From Mauremys mutica (taxonomy: Eukaryota; Chordata; Testudines; Geoemydidae), in the NCBI RefSeq assembly GCF_020497125.1, contig NC_059094.1, forward strand, positions 4,443,733 to 4,507,732: DNA of 64,000 bases, written 5' to 3'. Made by a program: the position numbers and the translations under genes. A model generated the notes under the pieces. That model made no database searches, was not told the DNA's origin, and worked only from the letters and a program-made list of their open reading frames with translations. Of this stretch, positions 1 to 61,290 are shown in pieces. Within the stretch, counting starts at the first letter, position 1, and the number at the start of each line of letters is the position of its first letter.

Positions 1-110
1 TGTCATACAGGAGGCCTGTGATATGCAGGGGTCAGATTAGATGCTCTAATGATCTCTTCTGGCCATCAAGTTGACTAATTTCTGAAAAACTGAGGGGAGC
101 ATTGGGAGCA
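1..110 (+). repeat. CR1-type LINE, 3' end fragment (cut by window edge)
   Basis: The sequence reads like the 3' untranslated tail of a CR1 LINE, with the usual 'gtcagattagatg...' and 'cttctggccat' phrases. The mirrored copy at about 60,715-60,823 continues into a longer minus-strand CR1 piece ending near 61,290, so the outer end of the arm lies inside or close to this element. Confidence 0.6.
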
Positions 111-442
111 GCGTCTGATGTTTTCCTGTCTAGCCAGCTTGCTTCCTAGAATGAACACTCCTTGAGTGGGGTGATCCCCAGGGAGTAGCTCAAACCTCCA
201 AAGTGCCTGGCCAGGGGCAGGACATTAGCCCAGCAAGGGAGGGGTGTGGCAGTGACATCACAAAGGCCTTTGGCAGGACCTCAGGCTATTGGTCAAAGGT
301 GGTGGGGAGGTGGTGACCTCACAGAGAGATGCTGACATCAGCCAGGCAGGACAGGGGCGAGGGGCCAGGGAAACCTCAGAGACTCCCGTGGCTTTGCTTC
401 AGCGAGTCTCCTTCTCCAGGTCTCTCTTTGAGGACTGAAAGA

Positions 443-532
443 GCATTCGGGTTCACGTACGGGAGCGCCAGGAGGAACCTCTTTCCAGTTTTCTCCTTCC
501 CCGTAGTGATTTTACTAGAAAACAGACGTCCC
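443..532 (+). repeat. About 90-bp segment repeated near both ends of the arm (outer copy)
   Basis: This segment, from 'gcattcgggttcacg' to 'aaaacagacgtcc', is about 85 % identical by eye to 18,738-18,825 in the same orientation. Because of the inverted duplication, further copies lie near 60,292-60,381 and 41,928-42,015. I do not recognise the family. It may simply be a dispersed repeat that happens to sit at both ends of the arm. Confidence 0.6.
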
Positions 533-800
533 TGTTTAGAAGGTAGGAGCCTCCTTGAGGTCTGAAACCTGTTCAGTCTGATCCATCTGGTGACAGTTGA
601 ATTCTAGGCAAGGAAAACACGAGCTTAAGGGGGCAGAATTTTATTCCACACCTGAGATTTTGTCCCTTAGAATCACTGGGGACATTAGGGTTTGTCCTTT
701 TTGTTTCACCTTTTCCTCTGTCCATCCCTCCCTCCCTCCTTTCTCTTCGTCTCTTGCTTCGTTTGTCCTTTCTCCTGTTCCCCTCCCAACACCAGGAGAG

Positions 801-829
801 TGGTGTGTGTGTGTGTGTGTGTGTGTGTT
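801..829 (+). repeat. (TG)n microsatellite
   Basis: An uninterrupted TG run of about 28 bp. The arm 2 counterpart (59,984-60,023) is longer and interrupted, so the two copies have changed length independently. Open reading frames across it are artefacts of the repeat. Confidence 0.9.
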
Positions 830-1267
830 GCGGGGGAGTGCCCTGCAGCTCCCACTGTGGGAGGTCCACCCAAAAATGTGGGGCTGAAATTGTGCTCGGG
901 CAATGATCCCACCAGTGACCTGGGCCATCCTTTGGGCTCTCTGGGGAGAACCCTCAGCCTCCCGTCCTCAGTCTCTACCCTGATTGGCTGAGCAGGGGGT
1001 TATTGACAGGGAGGAGACTCCCGTCCTTGTTGTTCTCTTTTAAGACCAAGGAAATAAGTCATAACCAGTCATATGTTTGACAAATTTTGCTGCTTTGCTG
1101 CATTAATGGTCTCTGAGCAGTTCATGATTCTCTCTAACGTTGCAGTTCTCCTAAAATACTTGCTGAATAATTACTGTGCACTGTTGTTGGTCTGGAGCTC
1201 ATCCGAGAGCACTTTATTCAGGTCATTCAATGTATGAAATTCAAGATCCAATGATTAGTTTGAAAAT

Positions 1268-1440
1268 CAGAGCTCTTGGGTCCTCTTCCCAACTCTGCCA
1301 CTGACTGGCAGTGTGACCTAAGACAAGTCAATTCTCCTTTCTCAGCCTTAGCTTCTCCCTCTTTCAAGTAGAGATAATAATGATCCGCTCCTACCTACCT
1401 CACGGTGGGTGGAGGATAGGAATCCATTGGAGAGTGTCAC
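1268..1440 (+). repeat. MIR-like SINE fragment
   Basis: It contains the core order typical of MIR SINEs: 'tctgccactgactggcagtg', then 'gtgacctaagacaagtca', 'tctcagccttagcttctc' and a 'gataataatgat' segment followed by 'cctacctcac'. Diverged and old. Mirrored at about 59,376-59,548. Confidence 0.75.
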
Positions 1441-1844
1441 TAGGAGCAGTGCATAATATGAGGTGTCCTATCACGTTTACTCAGAGCAGATTATGACATA
1501 ATAGAATAGCTGAAATAGTCTATTTTCTTTGTATTTTTTTATTTTGAAATTAAGAGCAGCAACTACTTAGCTCAGACTGAAGCATCTTATCTAATTTTTG
1601 AGATCTAAGTGTCTCCTCTTTGTGTGCGACGAGACAATTTAACACAATGTGACAAACAGGAGATGCTTTTGTTTTGCAACAAAATCTTTTTGCAAAGAAC
1701 CTTCATCCCACTTGTTATGATTTCGAGAAACAAACTGGTTTAGTCTTAATGGGATTTTCTGACAGAAATGGTTTCAATGACATTTCCCCACCATCTCGAT
1801 TCCTGGGCTCTATCCCTGCCTCTGGGGGTTTATCATCTGTTAGA

Positions 1845-1985
1845 ACAGGAGGAGGCAGGACTGGTGGCTTCTCTTTCTGGCTCTGCCACCGCCTTGCTGT
1901 GTAGGCCCTTGGGGAGGTCACTTCCCGTCTCTGTACCTCAGGCTCCTCCCCATCTGTCCAATGCAAACAGGGACAGTTCTTGAAA
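1845..1985 (+). repeat. MIR-like SINE fragment
   Basis: A 'ggctctgccaccgccttgctgtgta' type core is followed by 'aggtcacttcccgtctctg' and 'cctcaggctcctccccatctgt', the MIR order. Mirrored at about 58,830-58,970 on the minus strand. Confidence 0.65.
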
Positions 1986-2229
1986 TCTGGGCAGTTGTGA
2001 GCCTGAGTGAGATAAGGGGCGTTAAAGCCCTCTGTGAAGGAGAAAGGGGAGTTTCACAGTGTTTAGCACCAAGGAATTCTAAAGTTTGCTCAAATGTCTA
2101 GTCTGTGGAAACAAGAAATGGTCGGGGCCAAACCTTTTAACCACTGCCTTTTTTAAAGCCCATTCAGGGATGTGAGTGAGTCCCTGTCTTTTAGGTACCT
2201 GGGGTTCTTTGCCAGCAGGAGAGAAGAGG

Positions 2230-2935
2230 TTCCTGCCACCATTTTTGTGGCCTTAACAAACCAGGTGTTGTGCCCCAGTTCTCGTCTGAGATCCCTGAAA
2301 AAGAACATCTTCCCATCCATGAACAAGACAGGACCTATCTTTCAAAGGGGAACAAAGAGAACCCTGGGACTTACAGACTAGCTAGCCTCACTTCCATAGC
2401 TGGAGAGATCCTGCAATACATTCTTAAACCAGCAGTTTGTCAGCAGCACCTACAGGATAATTTGGTTCTTAGGACTAGTGAGCATGGATTTGTCAAGAAC
2501 AAATCATTCCAAACCAATCCTCTTTCCTTCTTTGGCAGGGTTCCGGGCCTAGTGCAGGTGGGTAAACAGTAGATGGGATCTATCTTGGGGTTACTAAGGC
2601 TTTTGACACAGCCCCATAGGACAGTCTCACAAGCAAACGAGGGAAATGCGGGCTAGATGCAATCAGTGTAATGTGGGTGCAGAGCTGGTTGAAAGCCCAG
2701 ACTCCAAGAGCCCTTCTCCACGTCTGGCTGTCCAATGGAGAAGGTGCACCTGGTGGGTCTGGCAGGGATCAGTCCGGGGTCTGGTACTATTCAATATTTT
2801 CATGAATGATTTGGAAGATGGACTGGAGAGCGTGCTGCTAAAATGTGCAACTGACACCAAGCACTCTGGAGCACAGGATTGGGATTCAAAATGCCCGTAA
2901 CAAATTGGAGAATTGGTCTTCTTGAGCCACACTCC
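2230..2935 (+). pseudogene. Decayed CR1-clade LINE reverse transcriptase fragment
   Basis: Two short reading frames in sequence preserve LINE RT phrases. At about 2,270-2,572 there is 'YLSKGNKENPGTYRLASL', which aligns with the conserved 'NYRPISLTS' region of CR1-clade RTs. At about 2,646-2,900 there is 'GSVRGLVLFNIFMNDLED', which corresponds to the 'PQGSVLGPxLFNIFINDL' block. The Asp-Asp catalytic pair is degraded ('CATDTK'). Frames are broken and there is no complete ORF. This is an old 5'-truncated insertion that predates the arm duplication, because arm 2 carries the same decayed copy at 57,885-58,590. Confidence 0.8.
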
Positions 2936-3319
2936 ATGGCTGGGCCCCTCTCTCTAGACTGGGCTGAAGTGAAACCCCAGAGCCAAACCCTCCTCCTCCT
3001 GGGCCATGCGCTCCGCCCTGGAATGCTCAGATGCTGCTTAGCGCTGTCAGAGCAGCTTTGGCTGGGGGATTCTCCCAGCACTTTCCAGTATTAAATCCCC
3101 CTTTGACTGCTGGGGACAGAGCCCTAGAGGGGGGAGCAACTTGCCCAGAGTCCCCCAGGAAAAGGAAAACAACCAGCTGTGGAACCAATAGGAAACCCAG
3201 CAATGGAACCCAGGAGTCCTGACTCCCAGTCCCCTGGCCCGGTCACTCCAGCGGAGCTCACTCGCTCTCAAAGGCAGGGGGAGCGGCCATGAGGGCTGCT
3301 TGTAACTGCCAGCTGTGGG

Positions 3320-3450
3320 AGGGAGTGTGCAGCAGTGGTTAGTGAAGGGGCCTGGAAAGGAGGACTGCTGGGTCCCATCCCTACTTCTGACCCTTGGTGT
3401 GACCCTGAGCCAGTAGCTTCCCCTCCCCAGGCCTGTTTCTCATCAGTGGG
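3320..3450 (+). repeat. MIR-like SINE fragment
   Basis: The segment around 'gtgcagcagtggttagtg', then 'gggtcccatccctacttctgac' and 'gtgtgaccctgagccag...cttcccctccccaggcctg' follows the MIR order. Mirrored near 57,365-57,490. Between it and the first MROH coding exon (3,450-4,504) I see only a possible non-coding exon at about 3,630-3,788, with acceptor 'ttttcacag' and donor 'gcaa|gtgagt'. Confidence 0.6.
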
Positions 3451-4504
3451 GTTGGGGGCGCAGTCCCGACAGCCCAGGGGGGTTGGGAGGCTCCAGGAAG
3501 GTGTGTAAAGTGCTGGGATGTCAGGATCTGGAGGCGCTGTCACCCCCGCACTAGGGTGATGTTCTGCACCCCCTGCTGCTGGCCGAGTTTCTCCGTCCTT
3601 GGCAATAAGACAGACTCTTCTTTTCACAGCCAGCCGATCGCCCAGTGCCATCACCCTGCCTGCTGGCTGGGCAGGGTAACTCCTCAGGTCACCACCCCCC
3701 CTCCAGCCTGCCTTGGGCTTGGGGAGTGAGGAGAAGGGCGAGGGACGAACCTGAACATCCTCCATCCATCGCTCCGTCACCAGAGCAAGTGAGTGGCATT
3801 AGGGTTCCCCGGTGGTGTCCCCTGTCTGTCTGGGGAGAGGCAGAAAGAGGGGGAGAGAATCTCTCCCAAAGGAGATTGGATTTGCAAACAGCCCCCAGGA
3901 GCCCCTCGCTCTCAGACCGGGGAGGGGCTTCTCCAGAGCCGTCTCCACTGTGCTTGGAAAGGTCCCAGCAATGGGGCTCCCAGCCCTTCCCTTGTGGGAG
4001 ACTGTTCCCCAGGCTGAGAGTCTCTGAGCTGGGCCAGACCCGGTGAGCTGCTGAGCATGGAAATCAATGGGAACCGAGGGGGCCCTGGCCTTGCTATGCC
4101 GAGGGACTTTGAAGGGGGGATGGTTTCCCAGGAGAAGTCCAGACTCCTGGCTTCTCTTCCTTCTCTAGCCTGGGCGGGGGGTGGGGGTGGGGGAGTGTGG
4201 CCTGGGCTGGCAGGAGGGAGCTGCTTGTCCAAAGTGACTGATGGTCTTTGTGACTGACCCCAGTGCTCGAAAAGGACGAGACTCCCCGGTTCTTGCAGCC
4301 CCAGGGATGACGAGGGGGAGCGCTGATGGGGAGCAGGTCATGCAATGAACTCCTGCCAGTGTGTGTAGCCTGCACTCCCTGCACCCCTGTGGGGGGAGGA
4401 GGAGCTGCTCTGGCTGGGGCAGGGATGGAGAAGGACCAAACAGGCTGGTTAGTGAGAGGCTGCCCTGACCCCAGACTCACGCCCGCTCCCCGCTCAGTTC
4501 CAGG

Positions 4505-7500
4505 ATGGCCGGGCTCCTGAGGATGTTCAGGAAGAAGGCTCTGAAGGTGGCCCCAGAGCCTGAGGGGAGCAGCTGCCATCTTCCCCAGGAGCAGAGCGGC
4601 CCCTCTGTCCCCGCTGGCGGGGAAGGAGCTCCCGGCCGGACCAGGAGGTGGAAGTTCCCAGCCTTCTGGAAGAGGAAACCTGCTCCCGGCGCAGGCGCCG
4701 AGGTGGGAGAGGCACTGGCCAGGCCAAAATGGAGCTGGTCCAGGATGCGGCTGGGCAGGCAGGACCCAGCCCAGGAGCGCAACCGGGCAGGGTGGCTCCG
4801 GGGCTTGTTATGTGGGCAGCAGCGGCCCCAGGAGCCCAGCCCCGATTTCCATCAGGAGGCATCGCCCAGCCCGGTCAGTGGGGACCTTCCAGCCTTCCCA
4901 GGGCAGGAGGTGGAGGATCCCTCTCCCAGCCCCAGCAGCTCGGCCCGCTCCCCATGGGACAGCAGCAGCGCCTGCGACTCGGACAGCAGCTCGGCCGACG
5001 GACGCTTCTGCTTCGTTCAAGGTGAGGAGCCAGGCTGGGCTCAGGGAGGGGTGAGGAGGGGGCTGTGAACACCCTGGGCCCAGGCCCTCGAGCAGTGCTC
5101 TGGGGGCGGGTCCCCAGCCCAGGGGTCTGGCCTGAGCCACGTGAACCCCACTGACACTAGATGCTGCCACATTGGTCCTTGCTGCTCCATTGGGTGGGGG
5201 GAGGCACCTCCCAGGGAGTCCAGGACTGAGGGGGGGTCTCTTTGCTATGGGCTCCTGAAGGAGTTGGGGGCTGACGACATCACTGAGGGGGGGAGTGTGG
5301 GGCCCGAGCTGCCCTATGTCCCGGAGGTGGGAAGGGGGCACAATGTCCCACCATGCCCCTGTCCTTCCCCCGAGTGGCAGCAGGAGTCACCCTGTCCCCT
5401 TCTCTCCCTGGTGCAGGGTCCGCCAGGGCCTCTGAGGACGAGCAGGAGCAGGAGGAGGAGGAGGAGGAGGAGGAATGGGTCGACGTGGTAACAGAGGAGG
5501 CTGCTCTCAAAAACATCCGAGAGCAGCTCCAGGGCCGAGAAAAGGTACAAACATTCCCCAGCTGTGCTGGAACCGAGATTGTCCTGCTCCTTCCCAGCAT
5601 CCCGACCCGCTGCAGAGGGTCTTGGCCCTCATGAGCCACCACCCCTAATGGGGACCTTTCTCCTCCATGATCTGGGACCCCCAAGCTGGGGGTGTTTGTC
5701 ACACACCAGCCAGGGTCTCCTCCCCCCACAGGCACTGTCCCAGTTCCTGACCCTGCTTGTGCAGGAGTCGTGGGTGATTTGGACACTAGGCGGGTCCCCA
5801 CTATCCCCCATTCAGGCCTAAGTCCTGCAGCTGGTGTGGCTGGGGCAGGGAGGTCCCTGGCTAACTGGCTCTCTCTCCCCTAACCCCACTCCTGGTGGGC
5901 GCAGGACGAGGCGCAGCAGCTCGTGTTCCTGCACGCCATCCACCCCGCGTGTCTCGCTGCACAGCAGAGAGGGCAGGACACATTGGAGCCGCGCTGCTGC
6001 AAGGCAGCTGTGGTGGAGAGGATTGTGGTGAGTGAGACACAGTGCCCGGCAGCTGGAGGGTGGACAGAGACACGGGAGGGGCAGGGGTCTCCCTGGGCCG
6101 ATGGTTGGGGAATGGCTGGTGGTGGAGGGGCAGCTGAGGGCAGGGATTGCTGGGGCTGCAGATTGGGGAGAAGAGACAGGAGAACGAGTGGGCAGGAATC
6201 GGAGGAGCGGGAGGCAGCTGGGGGGACACTGCTGGTTGTGTGGGGCCCTGGCTGTGTAATCTCCTCCATGGGAAGTGTCAGTGAGGCCCAAATCTCACCT
6301 GCTCCTTTGTCTCCTTTGTCTCTCCCAGGAGCTCATTGAGGAGCTTCCTGATGACTCTCCACCCGGCGCCGTCCTGGCCAACTGCCTGATCGCTGTGGCC
6401 AACCTCAGGTACCGAGACCCTCCTGCCCGGTTCCCCTAACCCCGGTGCTGCTCAGGCCCATGGCTGGGAGTCACTGCCCCTCCCACTCCCAGGTCACCTC
6501 CCAAGGATGGCTTCTCTGGCAGAGGTGGCAGGAAGGGTCACTCCCTCTCCTGACTGCTCTGTTCTTTTCACTCCAGTAACATTGCAATGGCTTTGGGGAG
6601 AGGCTGACTGCCAGGATCAGATACAGGAGAGGCAGCAGGGTTCAGGGAACAGGCGCCATTCCTGCCCTGCCATTGCCTGTCTGGGAAACCTTGGCCTTAT
6701 TGTTCCCTGGTTCGGTGCCTCAGTTTCTGCTCTCGCCAGCCTCTGCCTGTTTCCCTGCAGTTTCACGTCCGTGTCGGTGCCAATCCCACCTCCGCACTGC
6801 ACAGTCTAATATTGGCTCCTCTCTCTTGCCAGCACCATGACACCTGCCTTGGAGCCGGAGCTGGAGACCCACCTCCTCCGAGCTACCCTGCATGCCGTTT
6901 TCACCCTGGACACGCGGACGGACACCACCCAAGTCCAGGTAGATCAGCTAAATCATGGATTGAGGAGCCAGCTCTCATCCTGCCACGAATCCTTGCTAAT
7001 TGCCTGCAGTGGGATGAGAATGAGAGAGGCCAGGATATGTGTTTGGGGGTCTCACCAGTGCTTCCCAGAGACCCCTCTTCCCATCCTGTGGCAGGTGTAG
7101 CCCCACTTTCCCTAAGTCTGACCCATGGTTCTCCCTTTCTTTGCAGGATCTGCATAGGGTCATGCCAGACCTCCTGGACGCCATGCTGGGGAACCTGCTG
7201 GCAAAGTCCCCAGATACCATCAAGCTCCACTACATCTTGGAGGTGAGCCCGATGAGAGGGGTGGGGGCAATTTTACCTTAACTCTTCCATCCATTTTCCA
7301 GTCTGTCCTCCTAGATGGCCCCCAGTGGGGTGTCCTTGCTCAGGGCAGTCAGTGCAATGCAGTGTCAGGCCCTTCCTCCTTGAAGGACAGAGGAAGGAGC
7401 TGGGACTTCAAGCCAGAGCTCTGCTTGGTTCTGTTGAGCACTAACCAGGGGGCCCCTGGCTGGCTTGGGGAGTGAGAGTCTGAACCCCTCCTGTGAGATC

Positions 7501-10477
7501 CAGAAGATGGTCCTCAGAGAAGAGTCACAGGCTCGTTCCTAGAGAAACAGGAGGGCCCCAGAGAATCAGCCCTTGTCTCTGTCTGACAGGCCCCGAGATT
7601 CCTGGGGGGATTGTGTTCCCGCTCAGTCCCTTCACCCAACCAAGGACTTGAGAGCCAGGGAGGGCTGAGGGGTCTGTCTCCTTCCTGGTGAGCTGTTCAG
7701 GAATCAGGAGTTCAGGGAGGATGGGACCAGCCCCGCCACTGAGCATTTTCCCAATCTAGAGAGACAATGACAAGTTGTGACCTGCAGGATACAAGCATCG
7801 TCCTGAGGGCAACAATCCCCTTCTAAAGCTCTGCGATCAATGAATCAGATATTCCACCCGCATACAATGTCTCAGCCCCCGGGGACGGGGAGGGGCTCAT
7901 TAGCACAACACATGCACCCGCCCATTCATCCTCAGCTGCCTCCTTTCCCCACAGCACATTAACTACTGGATGGTGTCCAGGGTGTCGCGCGAGAGAGCCA
8001 GGGCCATTAGGAGCAGCGCGACCCTGCTCACCTCCATCATCACCCTCCCTGACTTCGACGTAAGTGGCCTCTGACCCCAGCTTCCTGACTCCAGGCGGGG
8101 GTGGGCTGGCTCCAAGGGGCTGTAGGATCTGCTGCTGCAGGGGCTGTGGGTTAGGAGTGTTCCTCTTGGGGAGGCAGAGTCAGAGCAGAGAATGAGCCTG
8201 GCTTGAGTCAAGTTCTTCTTGTCCTGGTGAAGCAGGGTGACCAGGCAGCAAGTGTGAAAAATTGGAACAGGGGGTGGGGGGTAATAGGAGCCTATATAAG
8301 AAAAAGACCCAAAAATCGGGACTGTCCCAATAAAATCGGGACATCTGGTCACCCTATGGTGAAGTGGCGACTCTCGCTTTTAAGGGGAGCCTGCTCCAGG
8401 TTCATGCCTTCCTGTCATCCTGGAGCAGCTGGGGAAGCAAATCCTCATGGAGGGCCCTGCCCCCATCCCTGTGCTCCAGGCTTGCTTGCGGGCAGAGAAA
8501 ATTAAGAGTCTAGCTCTAGCTCCTATCCTCCAGCATCTCCTGCCGAGGGGCTGAAGGGGAGTCCTGGCCCAGGCGGGGACTGGGAGCTGACAGGAAAATG
8601 CTGATGGAGTCCCCTCTCCCTCTTCCGTCCATTAGAACTCAGCCGAATTCCCCGAGATGGGTCACCATGTGGCACAGCTGGCTCTGTCCATCGGTGACCC
8701 AGACAAGGACATCAGCCGGCAGGCCAGGGAGGGGATTTTCCGGCTCTACCAACTGTTGCTGCACCAGAGGGGTAAGGAACCCAGCTGGGAAATGGCCCCC
8801 GCTAGACAAGTGAGACTGGGACCCCCACAGCCAATTTGTCTCCGAGTGACCCCGGCTGGAGGACAAGTCTCTCTCTCTCTTTCTGTGTTCTACCCCAGCC
8901 CCTGCAATTCTGTTGGGCCGGGCACACAGCGAGGACTCTGCCCACTGTGCAGCCACCAATGGGATTGGAAGGACACAAGCCCTGCAACCAGAATGACAAA
9001 TGTGTGTGTGTCTCTCTCTTTCCCAGACCTGACCATCCACGAGGCCGAAGAGCTGTGGCTCCGGGACTGGCACCAGGACAGCAGGCTCCTCGGCTATAAA
9101 AACACAGCCAGGGTCGGTGAGGTAAGGCCGCTGTGCCAGGGCATGGCACAGCTCGGGCAGTGCGGGTGGCTGCCTCCTGGAGCCACTAGCCCGAGTTGCC
9201 GTTCTAGTGCAGGATTTGGAGCCTGCTTCTGGGCAATTTGCTGAAGCCTCACGTCCGTTTGGTTTCAGGTCTTTGGAAAGTTATTCTCGGAGGGGCAGAG
9301 ACGCTTCTTCCTGCGTACGGCAGTGCTGGCCATGCACAACCCCCGGCTGCGTGTCAGCCAGGCTGGGCTGCTCCTCACTTACTCCCTCCTGGGGCAAGCC
9401 CAGCAGCTGCTGGGGGACAAGGTGAGCAGCTGCATTAGACTCCGGAGATGGGGGCGGGGCCCAGGCCTCATTCCCATCCTCCGGCCATTGGCCGGCCTGG
9501 CAGCAAGGCGACTGGTGGGGAATGAGAGCGAGAGCAGGTGCTACTGGGAAGGGAGATGAATTCACCTCCATGAGCAGGAGGGAGCCAGCTTGTCCCCGGA
9601 GCAGCTCCAGCCCAGCTCGTTAGCAAGGCTAATGAATGACAAGTATTGCCTCATCACGGACGTATGTTCTTGGGAAGGGCAGCAGCCCTCTGCCAGCCTC
9701 TCCTGTCACCCGAGCCACCAACAGGGCTGCCATCCTGCGGCTTCAGCATTAGTGGCTGGGATGACTTGGGGAAAGGTCGCAACCTCCCCACATCCCACTT
9801 CACTGCTGCCAGAATCCCTCCTCCCCCCCGCCCACCACTAGAGCCCCCTCCCTGCCCAACCTGGGTGGGAGTGGAGGAGAGGGTCTGAGAACTTGAGCCG
9901 TGGATTGGAGGTGGAACAGCTGTCAGGGGCACTGGGGGGAAGGTGGCAGGAGCTCACCCTACAAGCAGGGGAGTTGGCACTGGAGGTCACTAGAAAGGAC
10001 AACAAGACTCCATTCTGGGGGTCAGGAGGGGGACTCCATCCCTCAGAGGTGGGCGGGTGCTGGGTGGAAATGCTGCTGGTCCCAGGTGCCCTTAATCCCC
10101 CGATTCCGCAGGGGTGTCTGAGTCTCTGACGGGTCCTCGTTCCCTTGCAGCAGGAGGAGGTCACCTATAAGGTGACGCAACAACTGCACATCATCCACAA
10201 CTTGCACCAAGTGCCTGAGGCGGTGCAGGAGCTCTGCCTCCGAGGCCACCAGCTACTCCCGCTCCCTGTAAACGAGGAGTGTAGTCAGACTGAGTGGTCT
10301 CCCTCCGAGTGGGAGAGCGAGAGACCCCCTACACGCCCCTTGGAGGGTGAAGCCTATATTGCCCCGCCCCCCTCACCATCAGGACCGGGGCGTGGCCGGA
10401 AGTATAAAAGACTCTGCACAGTGGGGGGAGACCCTGCAAGACAGGAGGACGCTCAGCCTGTTCTCCAGAGGCCCTGA
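4505..10477 (+). CDS. Maestro HEAT-like repeat (MROH) family protein, arm 1 copy, 11 coding exons
   Basis: Coding exons with GT-AG borders and consistent phases lie at 4505-5021, 5417-5544, 5905-6027, 6329-6408, 6833-6938, 7147-7242, 7955-8059, 8636-8771, 9027-9121, 9269-9421 and 10151-10477. They predict about 621 residues without an internal stop. Residues 1-172 are basic then Ser-rich and disordered. Residues 173-215 include an acidic run. From about 216 to 550 the protein is helical and HEAT-like. Motifs recognised as MROH-family are 'LALSIGDPDKDISRQAREG', 'DWHQDSRLLGYKNTARVGE' and 'RVSQAGLLLTYSLLG'. The family forms superhelical scaffolds of uncertain molecular role; it is multi-copy in birds and reptiles. 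I cannot name the member. The ATG at 4505 lies 7 nt after a splice acceptor, implying an upstream untranslated exon. The end of exon 11 (after about residue 555) reads into mobile-element sequence and is probably not ancestral. Confidence 0.85.
6595..6770 (+). repeat. MIR-like sequence in MROH intron
   Basis: The stretch with 'cattcctgccctgccattgcctgtctggg' and 'ttccctggttcggtgcctcag' resembles the MIR core in the intron between coding exons 4 and 5. It is diverged and the call is tentative. The rest of this intron shows nothing else recognisable. Confidence 0.4.
8233..8356 (+). mobile_element. 124-bp hAT-type MITE in MROH intron
   Basis: The terminal inverted repeats 'cagggtgacc' and 'ggtcaccctA' bound a 124-bp element. 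A perfect 8-bp target duplication 'tggtgaag' flanks it (8225-8232 and 8357-8364), which is the hAT hallmark. It has no coding capacity. A same-length relative is at 38,467-38,590 in the spacer, and the mirrored copy is at 52,413-52,536. It sits between coding exons 7 and 8 and should not disturb splicing. Confidence 0.88.
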
Positions 10478-10954: not shown

Positions 10955-11134
10955 CAGGGCCGGCTCTACCATTTTTACCACCACAGGAAAAACAAAAAGG
11001 CGGCTCGGACTGCCGCCGCCCGAACTGCTGAAGCTGCCCAGACTCTGCTGCCCCAGGAATGGCCGGTTTGCCGCCCCTTAGCATGTGCCTCCCCAGCCAC
11101 GTGCTGGCTCCGCTGGTGCCTGGAGCCGGCCCTG
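10955..11134 (+). mobile_element. 180-bp hAT-type MITE
   Basis: Terminal inverted repeats 'cagggccggctcta' and 'tggagccggccctg' are flanked by a perfect 8-bp direct repeat 'cagcccag' (10,947-10,954 and 11,135-11,142). The element is non-coding. The same terminal family bounds the larger hAT element at 40,219-41,682. The mirrored copy is at 49,619-49,799. Confidence 0.88.
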
Positions 11135-11171
11135 CAGCCCAGGCCGCAGCCTGGTAACGACAGTTGACTAC

Positions 11172-49581: not shown

Positions 49582-49618
49582 GTAGTCAACTGTCGTTACC
49601 AGGCTGCGGCCTGGGCTG

Positions 49619-49799: not shown

Positions 49800-50025
49800 C
49801 TGGGCTGGGGTCGCTCAAGTGGTCAGCCCCCCAGCACAGTCTACCAGAGTGGCTCCGGCCTGGGCAGAGCCCAAGCAGCCCACAAACAACCAGTCTTCAA
49901 GGACGGGCTCTGGCCTGGGTGGAACCAGGCAGCCAGCGAGCAAACAGACTTGACAGGGCTGGCTCTAGCCTTGGCGGGGCTAGAGCCTCCTTGCACCGTG
50001 TAGGGGGTCAGCCACTCGGCCCACC

Positions 50026-53000
50026 CTACTCCACCGTGTCCCAGCCCAAGGTCCTGGCAGGGGCAGGATTGGCTGCCTCTGCATCGGCGGGGATCCTGCC
50101 GCAACACGCCGACTGAGCCGCGCTGGGCTCTGCAGCCGGCTGCTCCGGGGCTGCCCCTGGGCTACTTCCTGCCTCCCCAGGGTTTGGTACCCGCGGCCTC
50201 CAGGCCTCTTCCAGCTCCTTGGAGTAAACCGCAGCGAGGACTCCGGGCCAGTCCTCGTCCACGCCTGGGGATCCTCTCAGGGCCTCTGGAGAACAGGCTG
50301 AGCGTCCTCCTGTCTTGCAGGCTCTCCCCCCACTGTGCAGCACGGCCGGTCTTTTATACTTCCGGCCACGCCCCGGTCCTGACGGTGAGGGGGGCGGGGC
50401 AATATAGGCTCCACCCTCCAAGGGGCGTGTAGGGGGTCTCTCGCTCTCCCACTCGGCGGGAGACCACTCAGTCTGACTACACTCCTCGTTTACAGGGAGC
50501 GGGAGTAGCTGGTGGCCTCGGAGGCAGAGCTCCTGCACCGCCTCAGGCACTTGGTGCAAGTTGTGGATGATGTGCAGTTGTTGCGTCACCTTATAGGTGA
50601 CCTCCTCCTGCTGCAAGGGAACGAGGACCCGTCAGAGACTCAGACACCCCTGCGGAATCGGGGGATTAAGGGCACCTGGGACCAGCAGCATTTCCACCCA
50701 GCACCCGCCCACCTCTGAGGGATGGAGTCCCCCTCCTGACCCCCAGAATGGAGTCTTGTTGTCCTTTCTAGTGACCTCCAGTGCCAACTCCCCTGCTTGT
50801 AGGGTGAGCTCCTGCCACCTTCCCCCCAGTGCCCCTGACAGCTGTTCCACCTCCAATCCACGGCTCAAGTTCTCAGACCCCTCTCCTCCACTCCCACCCA
50901 GGTTGGGCAGGGAGGGGGCTCTAGTGGCGGGCGGGGGAGGGGGGGGAGGGATTCTGGCAGCAGTGAAGTGGGATGTGGGGAGGTTGAGATCTTTCCCCAA
51001 GTCATCCCAGCCACTAATGCTGAAGCCGCAGGATGGCAGCCCTGGGGGTGGCTCGGGTGACAGGAGAGGCTGGCAGAGGGCTGCTGCCCTTCCCAAGAAC
51101 ATACGTCCGTGATGAGGCAATACTTGTCATTCATTAGCCTTGCTAACGAGCTGGGCTGGAGCTGCTCCGGGGACAAGCTGGCTCCCTCCTGCTCATGGAG
51201 GTGAATTCATCTCCCTTCCCAGTAGCACCTGCTCTCGCTCTCATTCCCCACCAGTCGCCTTGCTGCCAGGCCGGCCAATGGCCGGAGGATGGGAATGAGG
51301 CCTGGGCCCCGCCCCAATCTCCGGAGTCTAATGCAGCTGCTCACCTTGTCCCCCAGCAGCTGCTGGGCTTGCCCCAGGAGGGAGTAAGTGAGGAGCAGCC
51401 CAGCCTGGCTGACACGCAGCCGGGGGTTGTGCATGGCCAGCACTGCCGTCCGCAGGAAGAAGCGTCTCTGCCCCTCCGAGAATAACTTTCCAAAGACCTG
51501 AAACCAAACGGACGTGAGGCTTCAGCAAATTGCCCAGAAGCCGGCTCCAAATCCTGCACTAGAACGGCAACTCGGTCCAGTGGCTCCAGGAGGCAGCCAC
51601 CCGCACTGCCCGAGCTGTGCCATGCCCTGGCACAGCGGCCTTACCTCCCCGACCCTGGCTGTGTTTTTATAGCCGAGGAGCCTGCTGTCCTGGTGCCAGT
51701 CCCGGAGCCACAGCTCTTCGGCCTCGTGGATGGTCAGGTCTGGGAAAGAGAGAGACACACACACATTGGTCATTCTGGTTGCAGGGCTTGTGTCCTTCCA
51801 ATCCCATTGGTGGCTGCACAGTGGGCAGAGTCCTCGCTGTGTGCCCGGCCCAACAGAATTGCAGGGGCTGGGGTAGAACACAGAAAGAGAGAGAGAGACT
51901 CGTCCTCCAGCCGGGGTCACTTGGAGACAAATTGGCTGCGGGGGTCCCAGTCTCACTTGTCTAGCGGGGGCCATTTCCCAGCTGGGTTCCTTACCCCTCT
52001 GGTGCAGCAACAGTTGGTAGAGCCGGAAAACCCCCTCCCTGGCCTGCCGGCTGATGTCCTTGTCTGGGTCACCGATGGACAGAGCCAGCTGTGCCACATG
52101 GTGACCCATCTCGGGGAATTCGGCTGAGTTCTAATGGACAGAAGAGGGAGAGGGGACTCCATCAGCATTTTCCTGTCAGCTCCCAGTCCCCGCCTGGGCC
52201 AGGACTCATTCCCCTCAGCCCCTCGGCAGGAGATGCTAGAGCACAGGAGCTAGAGCTAGACTCTTAATTTTCTCTGCCCGCAAGCAAGCCTGGAGCACAG
52301 GGATGCGGGCAGGGCCCTCCATGAGGATTTGCTTCCCCAGCTGCTCCAGGATGACAGGAAGGCATGAACCTGGAGCAGGCTTCCCTTAAAAGCGAGAGTC
52401 GCCACTTCACCATAGGGTGACCAGATGTCCCGATTTTATAGGGACAGTCCCGATTTTTGGGTCTTTTTCTTATATAGGCTCCTATTACCCCCCACCCCCT
52501 GTCCCAATTTTTCACACTTGCTGCCTGGTCACCCTGCTTCACCAGGACAAGAAGAACTTGACTCAAGCCAGGCTCATTCTCTGCTCTGACTCTGCCTCCC
52601 CAAGAGGAACACTCCTAACCCACAGCCCCTGCAGCAGCAGATCCTACAGCCCCTTGGAGCCAGCCCACCCCCGCCTGGAGTCAGGAAGCTGGGGTCAGAG
52701 GCCACTTACGTCAAAGTCAGGGAGGATGATGATGGAGGTGAGCAGGGTCGCGCTGCTCCTAATGGCCCTGGCTCTCTCGCGCGACACCCTGGACACCATC
52801 CAGTAGTTAATGTGCTGTGGGGAAAGGAGGCAGCTCAGGATGAATGGGCGGGTGCATGTGTTGTGCTAATGAGCCCCTCCCCATCCCCGGGGGCTGAGAC
52901 ACTGTATGCGGGTGGAATATCTGATTCATTGATCGCAGAGCTTTAGAAGGGGATTGTTTCCCCCAGGACAACGCTTGTATCCTGCAGGTCACAACTTGTC

Positions 53001-56000
53001 ATTGTCTCTCTAGATTGGGACAATGCTCAGTGGCAGGGCTGGTCCCATCCTCCCTGAACTCCTGATTCCTGAACAGCTCACCAGGAAGGAGACAGACCTC
53101 AGCCCTCCCTGGCTCTCAAGTCCTTGGTTGGGTGAAGGGACTGAGCGGGAGCACAATCCCCCCAGGAATCTCGGGGCCCGTCAGAGACAAGGGCTGATTC
53201 TCTGGGGCCCTCCTGTTTCCCTAGGAACGAGCCTGTGACTCTTCTCTGAGGACCATCTTCTGGATCTCACAGGAGGGGTTCAGACTCTCACTCCCCAAGC
53301 CAGCCAGGGGCCCCCTGGTTAGTGCTCAACAGAACCAGGCAGAGCTCTGGCTTGAAGTCCCAGCTCCTTCCTCTGTCCTTCAAGGAGGAAGGGCCTGACA
53401 CTGCATTGCACTGACTGCCCTGAGCAAGGACACCCCACTGGGGGCGCAGCTAGGAGGACAGACTGGAAAATGGATGGAAGAGTTAAGGTAAAATTGCCCC
53501 CACCCCTCTCATCGGGCTCACCTCCAAGATGTAGTGGAGCTTGTTGGTATCTGGGGACTTTGCCAGCAGATTCCCCAGCATGGCGTCCAGGAGGTCTGGC
53601 ATGACCCTATGCAGATCCTGCAAAGCAAGGGAGAGCCATGGGTCAGACTTAGGGAAACTGAGGCTACACCTGCCACAGGATGGGAAGAGGGGTCTCTGGG
53701 AAGCACTGGTGAGACCCCCAAACACATATCCTGGCCTCTCTCATTCTCATCCCACTGCAGGCAATTAGCAAGGATTCGTGGCAGGATGAGAGCTGGCTCC
53801 TCAATCCATGATTTAGCTGATCTACCTGGACTTGGGTGGTGTCCGTCCGCGTGTCCAGGGTGAAAACGGCATGTAGGGCAGCTCGGAGGAGGTGGGTCTC
53901 CAGCTCCGGCTCCAAGGCAGGTGTCATGGTGCTGGCAAGAGAGAGGAGCCGGTATTAGACTGTGCAGTGCGGAGGTGGGATTGGCACCGACACGGACGTG
54001 AAACTGCAGGGAAATAGGCAGAGGCGGGCGAGAACGGAAACTGAGGCACCGAACCAGGGAACGATAAGGCCAAGGTTTCCCACACAGGCAATGGCAGGGC
54101 AGGAATGGTGCCTGTTCCCTGAACCCTGCTGCCTCTCCTGTATCTGATCCTGGGAGTCAGCCTCTCCCCAAAGCCATTGCAATGTTACTGGAGTGAAAAG
54201 AACAGAGCAGCCAGGAGAGGGAGTGATCCTTCCTGCCACCTCTGCCAGAGGAGCCACCCATGGGAGGTGACCTGGGAGTGGGAGGGGCAGTGACTCCCAG
54301 CCATGGGCCTGAGCAGCACCGGGGTTAGGGGAACCGGGCAAGAGGGTCTCGGTACCTGAGGTTGGCCACAGCGATCAGGCAGTTGGCCAGGACGGCGCCG
54401 GGTGGAGAGTCATCAGGAAGCTCCTCAATGAGCTCCTGGGAGAGACAAAGGAGACAAAGGAGCATGTGAGATTTGGGCCTCACTGACACTTCCCATGGAG
54501 GAGATTACACAGCCAGGGCCCCACACAACCAGCAGTGTCCCCCCAGCTGCCTCCCGCTCCTCCGATTCCTGCCCACTCGTTCTCCCGTCTCTTCTCCCCA
54601 GTCTGCAGCCCCAGCAATCCCTGCCCTCAGCTGCCCCTCCACCACCAGCCATCCCCCAACCATCGGCCCAGGGAGACCCCTGCCCCTCCCGTGTCTCTGT
54701 CCACCCTCCAGCTGCCGGGCACCGTGTCTCGCTCACCACAATCCTCTCCACCACAGCTGCCTTGCAGCAGCGCGGCTCCAATGTGTCCTGCCCTCTCTGC
54801 TGTGCAGCGAGACACGCGGGGTGGATGGCGTGCAGGAACACGAGCTGCTGCGCCTCGTCCTGTGCCCACCAGGAGTGGGGTTAGGGGAGAGAGAGCCAGT
54901 TAGCCAGGGACCTCCCTGCCCCAGCCACACCAGCTGCAGGACTTAGGCCTGAATGGGGGATAGTGGGGACCCGCCTAGTGTCCAAATCACCCACGACTCC
55001 TACACAAGCAGGGTCAGGAACTGGGACAGTGCCTGTGGGGAGAGGAGACCCCGGCCGGTGTGTGACAAACACCCCCAGCTTGGGGGTCCCAGATCATGGA
55101 GGAGAAAGGTCCCCATTAGGGGTGGTAGCTCATGAGGGCCAAGACCCTCTGCAGCGGGTCGGGATGCTGGGAAGGAGCAGGACAATCTCGGTTCCAGCAC
55201 AGCTGGGGAATGTTTGTACCTTTTCTCGGCCCTGGAGCTGCTCTCGGATGTTTTTGAGAGCAGCCTCCTCTGTTACCACGTCGACCCATTCCTCCTCCTC
55301 CTCCTCCTCCTGCTCCTTCTCGTCCTCAGAGGCCCTGGCGGACCCTGCACCAGGGAGAGAAGGGGACAGGGTGACTCCTGCTGCCACTCGGGGGAAGGAC
55401 AGGGGCATGGTGGGACAATGTGCCCCCTTCCCACCTCCGGGACATAGGGCAGCTCGGGCCCCCCCTCCCTCCCTCAGTGATGTCATCAGCCCCCAACTCC
55501 TTCAGGAGCCCATAGCAAAGAGACCCCCCCTCAGTCCTGGACTCCCTGGGAGGTGCCTCCCCCCGCCCAATGGCACCAAGGACCAATGTGGCAGCATCTA
55601 GTGTCAGTGGGGTTCACGTGGCTCAGGCCAGACCCCTGGGCTGGGGACCCGCCCCCAGAGCACTGCTCGAGGGCCTGGGCCCAGGGTGTTCACAGCCCCC
55701 TCCTCACCCCTCCCTGAGCCCAGCCTGGCTCCTCACCTTGAACGAAGCAGAAGCGTCCGTCGGCCGAGCTGCTGTCCGAGTCGCAGGCGCTGCTGCTGTC
55801 CCATCGGGAGCGGGCCGAGCTGCTGTCCAAGTCGCAGGCGCTGCTGCTGTCCCATGGGGAGCGGGCCGAGCTGCTGGGGCTGGGAGAGGGATCCTCCACC
55901 TCCTGCCCTGGGAAGGCTGGAAGGTCCCCACTGACCGGGCTGGGCGATGCCTCCTGATGGAAATCGGGGCTGGGCTCCTGGGGCCGCTGCTGCCCACATA

Positions 56001-56304
56001 ACAAGCCCCGGAGCCACCCTGCCCGGTTCTGCTCCAGGGCTGGGTCCTGCCTGCCCAGCCGCATCCTGGACCAGCTCCATTTTGGCCTGGCCAGTGCCTC
56101 TCCCACCTCGGCGCCTGCGCCGGGAGCAGGTTTCCTCTTCCAGAAGGCTGGGAACTTCCACCTCCTGGTCCGGCCGGGAGCTCCTTCCCCGCCAGCGGGG
56201 ACAGAGGGGCCGCTCTGCTCCTGGGGAAGATGGCAGCTGCTCCCCTCAGGCTCTGGGGCCACCTTCAGAGCCTTCTTCCTGAACATCCTCAGGAGCCCGG
56301 CCAT
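50026..56304 (-). CDS. Maestro HEAT-like repeat (MROH) family protein, arm 2 copy, 11 coding exons
   Basis: Coding exons on the minus strand, in order: 56304-55737, 55344-55220, 54859-54737, 54435-54356, 53931-53826, 53617-53522, 52814-52710, 52130-51995, 51739-51645, 51497-51345 and 50610-50026. They predict about 723 residues with no internal stop. It differs from the arm 1 copy by a 17-residue in-frame duplication in the Ser-rich part of exon 1, one Glu fewer in exon 2, and scattered substitutions (for example 'TNKLHYILE' for 'TIKLHYILE'). The C-terminal tail is longer because 7 extra bases near 50,345 change the frame within mobile-element sequence. The HEAT-like core is intact. It converges with the arm 1 copy across the spacer. 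Confidence 0.85.
52413..52536 (-). mobile_element. 124-bp hAT-type MITE in MROH intron, arm 2 copy
   Basis: Mirror of 8,233-8,356, with the 8-bp duplication 'cttcacca' at 52,405-52,412 and 52,537-52,544. Confidence 0.88.
55763..55864 (-). repeat. 51-bp tandem duplication in MROH exon 1
   Basis: Two near-identical 51-bp units encode a Ser/Ala-rich segment ('ARSPWDSSSACD' and 'ARSRWDSSSACD'). Arm 1 has only one unit (near 4,940-4,995). The change keeps the frame. Confidence 0.88.
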
Positions 56305-57364
56305 CCTGGAACCGAGCGGGGAGCAGGCGTGAGTCTGGGGTCAAGGCAGCCTCTCACTAACCAGCCTGTTTGGTCCCTCCCCATCCCTGCCCCAGCCAGA
56401 GCAGCTCCTCCTCCCCCCACAGGGGTGCAGGGAGTGCAGGCTACACACACTGGCAGGAGTTCATTGCATGACCTGCTCCCCCTCAGCGCTCCCCCTCGTC
56501 ATCCCTGGGGCTGCAAGAACCGGGGAGTCTCGTCCTTTTCGAGCACTGGGGTCAGTCACAAAGACCATCAGTCACTTTGGACAAGCAGCTCCCTCCTCCC
56601 AGCCCAGGCCACACTCCCCCACCCCCACCCCCCACCCAGGCTAGAGAAGGAAGAGAAGCCAGGAGTCCGGACTTCTCCTGGGAAACCATCCCCCCTTCAA
56701 AGTCCTTCGGCATAGCAAGGCCAGGGCCCCCTCGGTTCCCATTGATTTCCATGCTCAGCAGCTCCCCGGGTCTGGCCCAGCTCAGAGACTCTCAGCCTGG
56801 GGAACAGTCTCCCACAAGGGAAGGGCTGGGAGCCCCATTGCTGGGACCTTTCCAAGCACAGTGGAGACGGCTCTGGAGAAGCCCCTCCCCAGTCTGAGAG
56901 TGAGGGGCTCCTGGGGGCTGTTTGCAAATCCAATCTCCTTTGGGAGAGATTCTCTCCCGCTCTTTCTGCCTCTCCCCGGACAGACAGGGGACACCACCGG
57001 GGAACCCTCATGCCACTCACTTGCTCTGGTGATGGAGCGATGGATGGAGGATGTTCAGGGTCGTCCCTCGCCCTTCTCCTCACTCCCCAAGCCCAAGGCA
57101 GGCTGGACGGGGGGTGGTGACCTGAGGAGTTACCCTGCCCAGCCAGCAGGCAGGGTGATGGCACTGGGCGATCGGCTGGCTGTGAAAACAAGAGTCTGTC
57201 TTATTGCCAAGGGATGGAGAAACTCGGCCAGCAGCAGGGGGTGCAGAACATCACCCTAGTGCAGGGGTGACAGCGCCTCCGGATCCTGACATCCCAGCAC
57301 TTTACACACCTTCCTGGAGCCTCCCAACCCCCCTGGGCTGTCGGGACTGCGCCCCCAACCCTAC

Positions 57365-57490
57365 TGATGAGAAACAGGCCTGGGGAGGGGAAGCTACTGG
57401 CTCAGGGTCACAGCAAGGGTCAGAAGTAGGGATGGGACCCAGCAGTCCTTCTCTCCAGGCCCCTTCGCTAACCACTGCTGCACACTCCCT
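57365..57490 (-). repeat. MIR-like SINE fragment, arm 2 copy
   Basis: Mirror of 3,320-3,450. Confidence 0.6.
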
Positions 57491-57884
57491 CCCACAGCTG
57501 GCAGTTACAAGCAGCCCTCATGGCCGCTCCCCCTGCCTTTGAGAGGGAGTGAGCTCCGCTGGAGTGACCGGGCCAGGGGACTGGGAGTCAGGACTCCTGG
57601 GTTCCATTGCTGGGTTTCCTATTGGTTCCACAGCTGGTTGTTTTCCTTTTCCTGGGGGAATTTGGGCAAGTTGCTCCCCGCTCTAGGGCTCTGTACTCAG
57701 CAGTCAAAGGGGGATTTAATACTTTCCTGCTATTGGAAAGTGCTGGGAGAATCCCCCAGCAAAAGCTGCTCTGACAGAGCTAAGCAGCATCTGAGCACTC
57801 CAGGTCGGAGGGCACTGCCCAGGAGGAGTGTTTGGCTCTGGGGTTTCACTTCAGCCCAGTCTAGAGAGAGGGGCCCAGCCATGG

Positions 57885-58590
57885 AGTGTGGCTCAAGAAG
57901 ACCAATTCTCCAATTTGTTACGGGCATTTTGAATTCCAATCCTGTGCTCCAAAGTGCTTGGTGTCATTTGCACATTTTAGCAGCATGCTCTCCACTCCAT
58001 CTTCCAAATCATTCATGAAAATATTGAATAGTACCAGACCCCAGACTGATCCCTGCCGGACCCACCAGGTGCACCTTCTCCGTTGGACAGCCAGACATGG
58101 AGAAGGGCTCTTGGAGTCTGGGCTTTCAAACCAGCTCTGCACCCACATTACACTGATTGCATCTAGCCCGCATTTCCCTCGTTTGCTTGTGAGAATGTCC
58201 TATGGGGCTGTGTCAAAAGCCTTAGTAACCCCAAGATAGATCCCATCTACTGTTTACCCACCTGCACTAGGCCCGGAACCCTGCCAAAGAAGGAAAGAGG
58301 ATTGGTTTGGAATGATTTGTTCTTGACAAATCCATGCTCACTAGTCCTAAGAACCAAATTATCCTGTAGGTGCTGCTGACAAACTGCTGGTTTAAGAATG
58401 TATTCCAGGATCTCTCCAGCTATGGAAGTGAGGCTAGCTAGTCTGCAAGTCCCAGGGTTCTCTTTGTTCCCCTTTGAAAGATAGGTCCTGTCTTGTTCAT
58501 GGATGGGAAGATGTTCTTTTTCAGGGATCTCAGACGAGAACTGGGGCACAACGCCTGGTTTGTTAAGGCCACAAAAATGGAGGCAGGAAC
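57885..58590 (-). pseudogene. Decayed CR1-clade reverse transcriptase fragment, arm 2 copy
   Basis: Mirror of 2,230-2,935, with 'GSVWGLVLFNIFMNDLED' retained and the catalytic pair lost in the same way. Confidence 0.8.
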
Positions 58591-58829
58591 CTCTTCTCTC
58601 CTGCTGGCAAAGAACCCCAGGTACCTAAAAGACAGGGACTCACATCCCTGAATGGGCTTTAAAAAAGGCAGTGGTTAAAAGGTTTGGCCCCGACCATTTC
58701 TTGTTTCCACAGACTAGACATTTGAGCAAACTTTAGAATTCCTTGGTGCTAAACACTGTGAAACTCCCCTTTCTCCTTCACAGAGGGCTTTAACGCCCCT
58801 TATCTCACTCAGGCTCACGACTGCCCAGA

Positions 58830-58970
58830 TTTCAAGAACTGTCCCTGTTTGCATTGGACAGATGGGGAGGAGCCTGAGATACAGAGAAGGGAAGTGACCT
58901 CCCCAAGGGCCTACACAGCAAGGCGGTGGCAGAGCCAGAAAGAGAAGCCACCAGTCCTGCCTCCTCCTGT
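58830..58970 (-). repeat. MIR-like SINE fragment, arm 2 copy
   Basis: Mirror of 1,845-1,985. Confidence 0.65.
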
Positions 58971-59375
58971 TCTAACAGATAACAAACCCTCAGAGGCAGG
59001 GATAGAGCCCAGGAATCGAGATGGTGGGGAAATTTCATTGAAACCATGTCTGTCAGAAAATCCCATTCAGACTAAACCAGTTTGTTTCTCGAAATCATAA
59101 CAAGTGGGATGAAGGTTCTTTGCAAAAAGATTTTGTTGCAAAACAAAAGCATCTCCTGTTTGTCACATTGTGTTAAATTGTCTCGTCGCACACAAAGAGG
59201 AGACACTTAGATCTCAAAAATTAGATAAGATGCTTCAGTCTGAGCTAAGTAGTTGCTGCTCTTAATTTCAAAATAAAAAAATACAAAGAAAATAGACTAT
59301 TTCAGCTATTCTATTATGTCATAATCTGCTCTGAGTAAACGTGATAGGACACCTCATATTATGCACTGCTCCTAG

Positions 59376-59548
59376 TGACACTCTCCAATGGATTCCCATC
59401 CTCCACCCACCGTGAGGTAGGTAGGAGCGGATCATTATTATCTCTACTTGAAAGAGGGAGAAGCTAAGGCTGAGAAAGGAGAATTGACTTGTCTTAGGTC
59501 ACACTGCCAGTCAGTGGCAGAGTTGGGAAGAGGACCCAAGAGTCCTGA
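59376..59548 (-). repeat. MIR-like SINE fragment, arm 2 copy
   Basis: Mirror of 1,268-1,440. Confidence 0.75.
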
Positions 59549-59981
59549 TTTTCAAACTAATCATTGGATCTTGAATTTCATACATTGAATGACCTGAATA
59601 AAGTGCTCTCGGATGAGCTCCAGACCAACAACAGTGCACAGTAATTATTCAGCAAGTATTTTAGGAGAATTGCAACGTTAAAGAGAATCATGAACTGCTC
59701 AGAGACCATTAATGCAGCAAAGCAGCAAAATTTGTCAAACATATGACTGGTTATGACTTATTTCCTTGGTCTTAAAAGAGAACAACAAGGACCTGAGTCT
59801 CCTCCCTGTCAATAACCCCCTGCTCAGCCAATCAGGGTAGAGACTGAGGACGGGGGGCTGAGGGTTCTCCCCAGAGAGCCCCAAAGGATGGTCACTGGTG
59901 GGATCATTGCCCGAGCACAATTTCAGCCCCACATTTTTGTGTGGACCTCCCACAGTGGGAGCTGCAGGGTACTCCCCCGCA

Positions 59982-59983
<2 letters not shown>

Positions 59984-60016
<33 letters not shown>

Positions 60017-60023
60017 CACACCA
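59984..60023 (+). repeat. (AC)n microsatellite
   Basis: Arm 2 counterpart of the TG run at 801-829. It is longer and interrupted by a single 'cg'. Confidence 0.9.
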
Positions 60024-60739
60024 CTCTCCTGGTGTTGGGAGGGGAACAGGAGAAAGGACAAACGAAGCAAGAGACGAAGAGAAAGGAGGGAGGGAGGGAT
60101 GGACAGAGGAAAAGGTGAAACAAAAAGGACAAACTCTAATGTCCCCAGTGATTCATAGGGACAAAATCCCAGGTGCAGAATAAAATTCTGCCTCCTTAAG
60201 CTTGTGTTTTCCTTGCCTAGAATTCAACTGTCACCAGATGGATCAGACTGAACAGGTTTCAGACCTCAAGGAGGCTCCTACCTTCTAAACAGGGACGTCT
60301 GTTTTCTAGTAAAATCACTACAGGGAAGGAGAAAACTGGAAAGAGGTTCCTCCTGGCGCTCCTGTACGTGAACCCGAATACTCCCTCAGTCCTCAAAGAG
60401 AGACCTGGAGAAGGAGACTCGCTGAAGCAAAGCCACGGGAGTCTCTGAGGTTTCCCTGGCCCCTCACCCCTGTCCTGCCTGGCTGATGTCAGCATCTCTC
60501 TGTGAGGTCACCACCTCCCCACCACCTTTGACCAATAGCCTGAGGTCCTGCAAAAGGCCTTTGTGATGTCACTGCCACACCCCTCCCTTGCTGTGCTAAT
60601 GTCCTGCCCCTGGCCAGGCACTTTGGAGGTTTGAGCTACTCCCTGTGGATCACCCCACTCAAGGAGCGTTCGTTCTAGGAAGCAAGCCGGCTAGACAGTA
60701 AAACATCAGACGCTGCTCCCAATGCTCCACTCAGTTTTT

Positions 60740-61290
60740 CAGAAATTAGTCAACTTTATGGCCAGAAGAGACCATTAGAGCATCTAATCTGACCCCCTGC
60801 ATATCACAGGCCTCCTGTATGACACAATAGCTTCTTTTGGGGCAAACACATTCCAGAAAGGCATCTAGTCTTCATGAAATGACATCAGGAGATGGCGAAT
60901 CCACCACTTTCCTTGGTAGCTTGTTCCTGTGGTGAATCATCCTCACTGTTGAATATTTGTGCCTTAGTTGTAATATGAATTTTTCTCTTTTCACCTTCCA
61001 GCCATTGAGTCTTGTTATGCCTTTCTCTGCTAGATTAAAGAGCCCTTTAATATCCAATATTTTCTCTCTATTAAAGCACTTCAACACTTCAATGAAGTCA
61101 CCTTTCAATCTTCTTTTGATAAGTTAAACAAGTTGAGCTCTTTCAATAACTCACTAGAAGGCATTTTTCTCCAGCCCTCAGAACATTTGGTGGCTCTTTG
61201 CTGCCCCAGCTCCAATTTCACAACATCTTTTTCAAACGAGGACACTAAAACTGGAGGCTGTATTCCAATATCAGTCTCACTGATGCCGTG
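60740..61290 (-). mobile_element. Old CR1-type LINE fragment, minus strand
   Basis: The minus-strand frame at 61,108-60,872 reads 'NLAEKGITRLNGWKVKREKF' and 'MIHHRNKLPRKVVDSPS', the C-terminal part of CR1-clade ORF2. The 3' tail extends to about 60,740. Only its tail lies inside the seen part of arm 1 (1-110), so the duplication's outer limit cannot be placed from this window. Confidence 0.75.

Follow-up and report, generated by a model that had tools for sequence, protein, structure and literature searches.

A stretch of 64,000 nucleotides from the turtle Mauremys mutica (NCBI RefSeq assembly GCF_020497125.1, contig NC_059094.1), called the window here, contains two inverted copies of a maestro-HEAT (MROH) gene within long arms whose outer ends coincide with termini of the type found in hAT transposons. 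The origin of this inverted pair is the subject of this report. The window corresponds to C23:4443733-4507732, on a 21.7-Mb sequence in a genome of 2.48 Gb. Window position x equals position 4443732 + x of chromosome C23, with 0 counted, so that -1251 is C23:4442481. Self-comparison detected one dominant inverted pair, in which positions 1-18862 aligned to the reverse complement of 41891-60824; this match of 18.9 kb lies far beyond chance. An earlier note made from the letters of the window had described an inverted duplication of this kind, and in this respect it was borne out.

Inspection of 100 kb fetched on each side indicated that the arms run on outside the window, from -1251 to 18862 (left arm, plus strand; 1-18862 within the window) and from 41891 to 62085 (right arm, minus strand), giving a common part of 20.1 kb. 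The outer limits of 1 and 60823 in the earlier note had reflected the edge of the window, while its sharp inner boundary at 18862/41891 was exact. Compared up to position 18860, the arms differed by 27 indels and had 302 substitutions among 18,824 aligned positions. The resulting identity by substitution (~98.4 %) is high but slightly lower than the ~99 % that had been claimed. All kinds of indel named in the earlier note were present among the 27: a 51-bp indel (4953/55855), 7-bp indels at two places (10413/50347 and 12214/48536), 3-bp indels at three places (2989, 5450 and 8558) and a difference in a GT/AC microsatellite (802/60021). As these differences attest, neither arm is an exact mirrored copy of the other. 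Divergence was 0.84 % at 14001-18860 versus 1.87 % further outward (Fisher p 2.6e-7), and the arms had in common an identical run of 718 bp, a length equaled in 2 of 2,000 permutations. Due to this lower divergence and the identical run, some degree of gene conversion towards the inner end of the arms is possible.

The cargo of the shared 20.1 kb is a predicted, intron-containing MROH gene. A match to the Pfam domain HEAT_Maestro (PF21047, E 5.8e-9) was detected in the frame at 8636-9241, and the left copy (4505-10273, plus strand) was assigned at least eight exons from reading frames and splice sites identified by eye, with some borders uncertain (4505-5033, 5417-5544, 5905-6027, 7147-7241, 8637-8772, 9027-9135, 9270-9421 and 10151-10273). 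These eight are the exons that were recognized; further exons are uncertain. The right copy (50482-56304, minus strand) was located by tblastn with five of the left exon peptides, at 90 to 100 % identity. Between the two copies, the exons exhibited 9 differences in 1,392 positions and the intervening introns 79 in 4,365 (Fisher p 0.0015). Two exonic indels, of 51 and 3 bases, were present and the reading frame was preserved in the eight recognized exons; the 7-bp indel at 10413 lies past the last of these (10273). Pieces of the MROH family were also detected on C1, C2, C3, C4 and C17, mostly 82 to 93 % identical and clustered in several places. A stretch around exon 1 (window 4400-5288) was also found without the remainder of the gene, in copies of 92 to 94 % identity; 17 such places were listed, of which 14 lie on high-numbered, presumably unplaced contigs.

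The outer end of the left arm interrupts a CR1 long interspersed nuclear element (LINE), which breaks off at -1252 after GTTAAATT and is followed by CAGTGATGAGC. A CR1 of the same orientation picks up at 25540 with GTTAAACT, preceded by CTCACCACTG. The two flanks were joined without the second target copy and aligned to an uninterrupted CR1 at 82047-82866, in window coordinates. This yielded a single match of 824 columns (704 identical), with the joint inside the match and free of gaps. The CR1 is continuous over the joint, indicating that the whole of -1251 to 25539 (26,791 bp, plus strand; 1-25539 inside the window) was inserted into a CR1. Target site duplications (TSDs) before (GTTAAATT) and after (GTTAAACT) this insertion agree in seven of eight bases. 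The interrupted CR1 continues at 25540-26400 (plus strand), was aligned in two pieces and may extend further. Following the common 20.1 kb, the insertion has a left-specific 3′ part (18863-25539, plus strand) which contains nested repeats, with pieces of CR1 at 19179-19309 and 21001-21496, and terminates in a dispersed hAT-type 3′ terminus.

A second insertion, of 24,242 bp, occupies 37844-62085 on the minus strand. Its TSD is perfect (8/8), with CTCCTCTC immediately before 37844 and again immediately after 62085; when 2,000,000 random pairs of 8-mers were drawn from the 264-kb region, 80 were identical and 1,007 had one mismatch. The right-specific 3′ part (38894-41890, minus strand), in which 40219-41682 is a dispersed repeat, is followed by a non-autonomous hAT-type element of 1,050 bp (37844-38893, minus strand) that provides the 3′ end of the entire unit. 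The outer ends of this unit belong to two element copies in the same direction, one contributing the 5′ end at 62085 and the other being the 1,050-bp element, which has a 5′ end of its own. The flanks of this inner element disagree (CTCCTCTC versus GCAAGGGT, its 5′ flank on the plus strand), and the agreeing flank is located 23.2 kb away, past the second 5′ end. Although nearer to the right 3′ end, the 5′ end at 38893 was rejected as its partner because the flanks differ. The far element at 62085 was not found to have a 3′ end near its 5′ part. Since the TSD agrees across the whole unit and disagrees across the 1,050-bp inner element, the right unit has the structure expected of a macrotransposon. 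It follows from the ends of the two insertions that the true spacer is 12.3 kb (25540-37843) and that the remainder of the 23-kb spacer of the earlier note belongs to the left element (6.7 kb) and the right element (4.0 kb). The sharing of all mobile elements, which the earlier note stated for the arms, fits the arms but not 18863-25539 and 37844-41890, which differ and are parts of the same insertions.

The termini were fixed independently of the TSDs, the 5′ end being defined by the homology of the arms and the joint in the CR1. Homology between the arms ends at -1251/62085, at CAGTGATGAGCT. Terminal inverted repeats (TIRs), alike over ~12 bp, are formed by this sequence at the 5′ ends and, read inward, by CAGTGGTGAGCT (left) and CAGGGGTGAGCT (right) at the 3′ ends. 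hAT elements are defined by an 8-bp TSD and a 15-bp TIR (PMC11008031). An identical 39-bp 5′ end was found behind three distinct flanks in the region (GTTAAATT, GAGAGGAG and ACCCTTGC). When the left 3′ piece was searched together with its flank, the main match stopped at query positions 638-644 in 34 and earlier in 5 of the 39 further scored copies among 7,656 candidates, with four minor rows excluded. Eight left-type 3′ ends were fetched and in all of these the terminus was followed by different sequence, although two of the eight had flanks resembling each other. The right 3′ end resembles the left one in terminal sequence and in place. Among 5,537 candidates for the 1,050-bp element (38893-37844), all 39 other scored copies reached the first base and 16 also reached the last three bases in one piece; as a query without flanks, this demonstrates a dispersed element of that extent rather than the stopping point of each copy.

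The first 1,052 bp of the giant element produced 40 scored matches of 9,220 candidates, of which seven, besides the left and right copies, start at element base 1. All seven carry the CR1 flank of the left copy, at 93 to 95 % identity, and were therefore rejected as additional insertions. The junction of CR1 and element (-1291 to -200) was observed in copies on C498, C576, C5, C6, C13 and C16, near sequence ends and on small contigs, in a pattern that looks like satellite-like amplification. As the distant copies with this CR1 flank are 93 to 95 % identical while the left and right copies here are 97 % identical, insertion into the CR1 probably predates the separation of left from right.

Two further copies of the MROH-bearing sequence, termed copies 3 and 4, are present on C23 at 6554000-6560763 (plus strand) and 6782011-6788581 (minus strand), 94 to 98 % identical to window 4400-10400. 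They constitute another inverted pair of this family, their matched parts being ~221 kb apart. An insertion located at window 5599/5600 is common to copies 3 and 4 and absent from the window copies. In an alignment of 2.6 kb, divergence was 2.0 % between left and right, 1.0 % between copies 3 and 4, 1.8 to 2.2 % across the pairs and 6.5 to 6.9 % from a copy on C17, so that the two arms are no more alike in this part than they are to copies 3 and 4. Left and right nevertheless grouped together (support, 0.91), as did copies 3 and 4 (0.97). Copy 3 also contains window 38913-39832 of the right 3′ part, at 97 % identity and in the expected place (C23:6569848-6570770); another repeat begins at 38913. 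Copies 3 and 4 are relatives by sequence, with homology that stops short of the true 5′ end of the element, and are at most candidates for insertion by transposition. That matches to window 14000-15500 might mark other giant copies was set aside; these loci exhibit a wider repeated unit that is partly, it appears, in tandem. An inverted pair related to window 14000-14765 was noted on C17 (15315517-15316298, plus strand, and 15351955-15352729, minus strand), ~36 kb apart.

These findings indicate that the apparent inverted duplication is most probably the product of two independent insertions, in opposite orientations and 12.3 kb apart, of a giant hAT-type transposon of 24 to 27 kb carrying the MROH gene. 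Initially, a giant hAT-type element, the left copy, would have inserted into the CR1 LINE. A hAT transposase supplied in trans could then have brought together a 5′ end from one copy and a 3′ end from a second, 1,050-bp copy situated 23.2 kb off in the same direction, and everything between those hAT ends (24.2 kb) would have been inserted at a new site nearby, generating the 8-bp duplication. Elements of the hAT type are known for local hops, and a move of 12 kb would fit this behavior. Movement would have been from the left type to the right type, with the gain in copy number possibly due to transposition during replication, and the different 3′ part of the left copy may have arisen by later deletion or replacement. 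The perfect TSD on the right versus the single mismatch on the left suggests that the right insertion is the younger one.

Several observations count against two insertions of a giant transposon. A Pfam scan of 20 frames, 14 of them from the left element and none from the right-specific part, detected no transposase. As the seven distant 5′ ends share the CR1 flank of the left copy, they were spread by ordinary copying and not by transposition. The predicted ancestral or donor junction, consisting of the 3′ end of the 1,050-bp element and ACCCTTGC, was not found in a pattern search permitting up to two mismatches, which gave 17 matches, none of them on C23 and therefore none at copies 3 and 4; the donor may be lost or changed, and this result lowers the claim of a macrotransposon but does not remove it. 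No empty right site was present within the 264-kb region, to which that search was limited. The left and right 3′ parts are unlike (6.7 versus 4.0 kb). Finally, the 5′ homology of copy 4 gives way to another repeat at element base 503 (2.6 kb was read beyond), that of copy 3 begins at base 190, and in its first 1,052 bp the element is just 92 to 93 % alike at these two copies.

The unlike 3′ parts behind a common 5′ end and 20.1 kb, with the abrupt internal junction at 18862/41891, would also be produced if the right copy was a composite assembled from transposon ends and re-copied flanks of variable length, either by alternative transposition with re-replication, as in the maize Ac model, or by template switching in a hAT element (FoSTeST). 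Both processes have precedents: composite insertions in which transposon ends flank segmental duplications are on record for maize (PMC4270019), and FoSTeST has been described (PMC8277862). Against a composite origin, the expected position in copy 3 is occupied by 0.9 kb from the 3′ part of the right copy (97 %) and the left and right copies group apart from copies 3 and 4. As copy 3 carries this part, the right-type order probably predates the right insertion and was lost by the left copy, making a new assembly unnecessary; we regard the composite as rather unlikely. The inverted orientation, the lower divergence at the inner end and the 718-bp identical run would each be expected from an ordinary inverted segmental duplication, generated by break-induced replication or template switching and homogenized by gene conversion as in palindromes. 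However, one and the same transposon terminus marks the two outer limits, with duplications of 8/8 and 7/8, and the left insertion splits a CR1 cleanly, such that this origin is very improbable. An assembly fold-back or allelic artifact, which has nothing in its favor beyond the form of the locus, is scarcely credible given 302 substitutions, 27 indels, unlike 3′ parts, unlike flanks and a TSD at each copy.

Other features were detected in and around the pair. The true spacer contains, at 28841-34824 on the minus strand, an element that we take to be of the DIRS type, with a reverse transcriptase (PF00078, E 5.6e-15), inverted termini that are 93 % alike and weak, below-threshold matches to an integrase N-terminal domain. 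An intronless syntaxin 6/10-like copy (36294-37252; PF09177, E 9.4e-30), in two frames, stops ~0.6 kb short of the right insertion. An open frame of 270 amino acids (35371-36180, minus strand) that includes a PNMA N-terminal domain (PF20846, E 9.5e-12) is enclosed by the copies of a 50-bp direct repeat (34844-34893/36283-36332). A zinc-knuckle frame (CCHC, PF00098, E 3.1e-5) is located inside the arms, at 12313-12618 and mirrored, flanked by parts of an internal repeat (11173-11399/12845-13071). Upstream of the window, at -42385 to -38495 (C23:4401347-4405237), there is a small inverted repeat with 1.1-kb arms that are 99.8 % identical. Scans with Rfam (gathering threshold) and for tRNAs gave no matches.

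Recombination or segmental duplication is the usual explanation for duplicates of intron-bearing animal genes, and the cargo described here is unusually large for a cut-and-paste element in an animal. A wider proposal, which we advance tentatively and with less than even confidence, is that a ~24-kb hAT macrotransposon has served as a vehicle of gene duplication, multiplying an intron-containing host gene (MROH), apparently under constraint, to at least four copies on one small chromosome. If this is true, a gene of at least eight exons was moved within 24 kb of DNA using one end from a common, short non-autonomous hAT copy, and many genes near such copies would be potentially mobile. The signature, 8-bp duplications at paired distant hAT ends, is simple and, with no restriction on length, could be sought in any assembly of good quality. 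In the open-licence literature, with most subscription papers outside the search, no published link between MROH, transposons and turtles and no report of this case were found; the term macrotransposon was encountered there for plants and for Teratorn, a fish element. The word hAT is absent from the accessible text of a review of giant eukaryotic transposons (PMC6431247).

Comparisons can be drawn with several known systems. Large palindromes bearing genes are known on sex chromosomes and resemble this locus in their inverted arms with genes and, possibly, in some conversion. The outer ends here, unlike those of such palindromes, are hAT-type transposon termini with 8-bp TSDs, and the sex-chromosome comparison of the earlier note is, hence, not the best fit. 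Animal Pack-TIR and Pack-hAT elements likewise hold host sequence between the ends of TIR transposons, with rare multicopy cases having distinct TSDs. In a survey of animal cases, the captured sequence had a median length of 224 bp, and internal lengths of 100 to 5,000 bp were admitted, with 10,000 bp tried in humans (PMC8277862), so that a cargo of more than 20 kb falls outside its range. Giant transposons such as Teratorn also mobilize tens of kilobases as a unit. Teratorn is described as a 180-kb piggyBac-like composite (PMC10175614) with a herpesvirus part (PMC6431247), while no transposase of its own was seen for the element here in the 20 frames scanned. Maize Ac/Ds macrotransposons differ in that the present case concerns an animal genome, at least one end from a short non-autonomous element and a host gene as cargo, with mobility inferred from sequence. 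A 28-kb Ac macrotransposon of maize was reported to excise and leave a modified 8-bp footprint (PMC9910405), and in these maize elements, as at this locus, the hAT ends of different copies carry the intervening DNA and are bordered by an 8-bp duplication.

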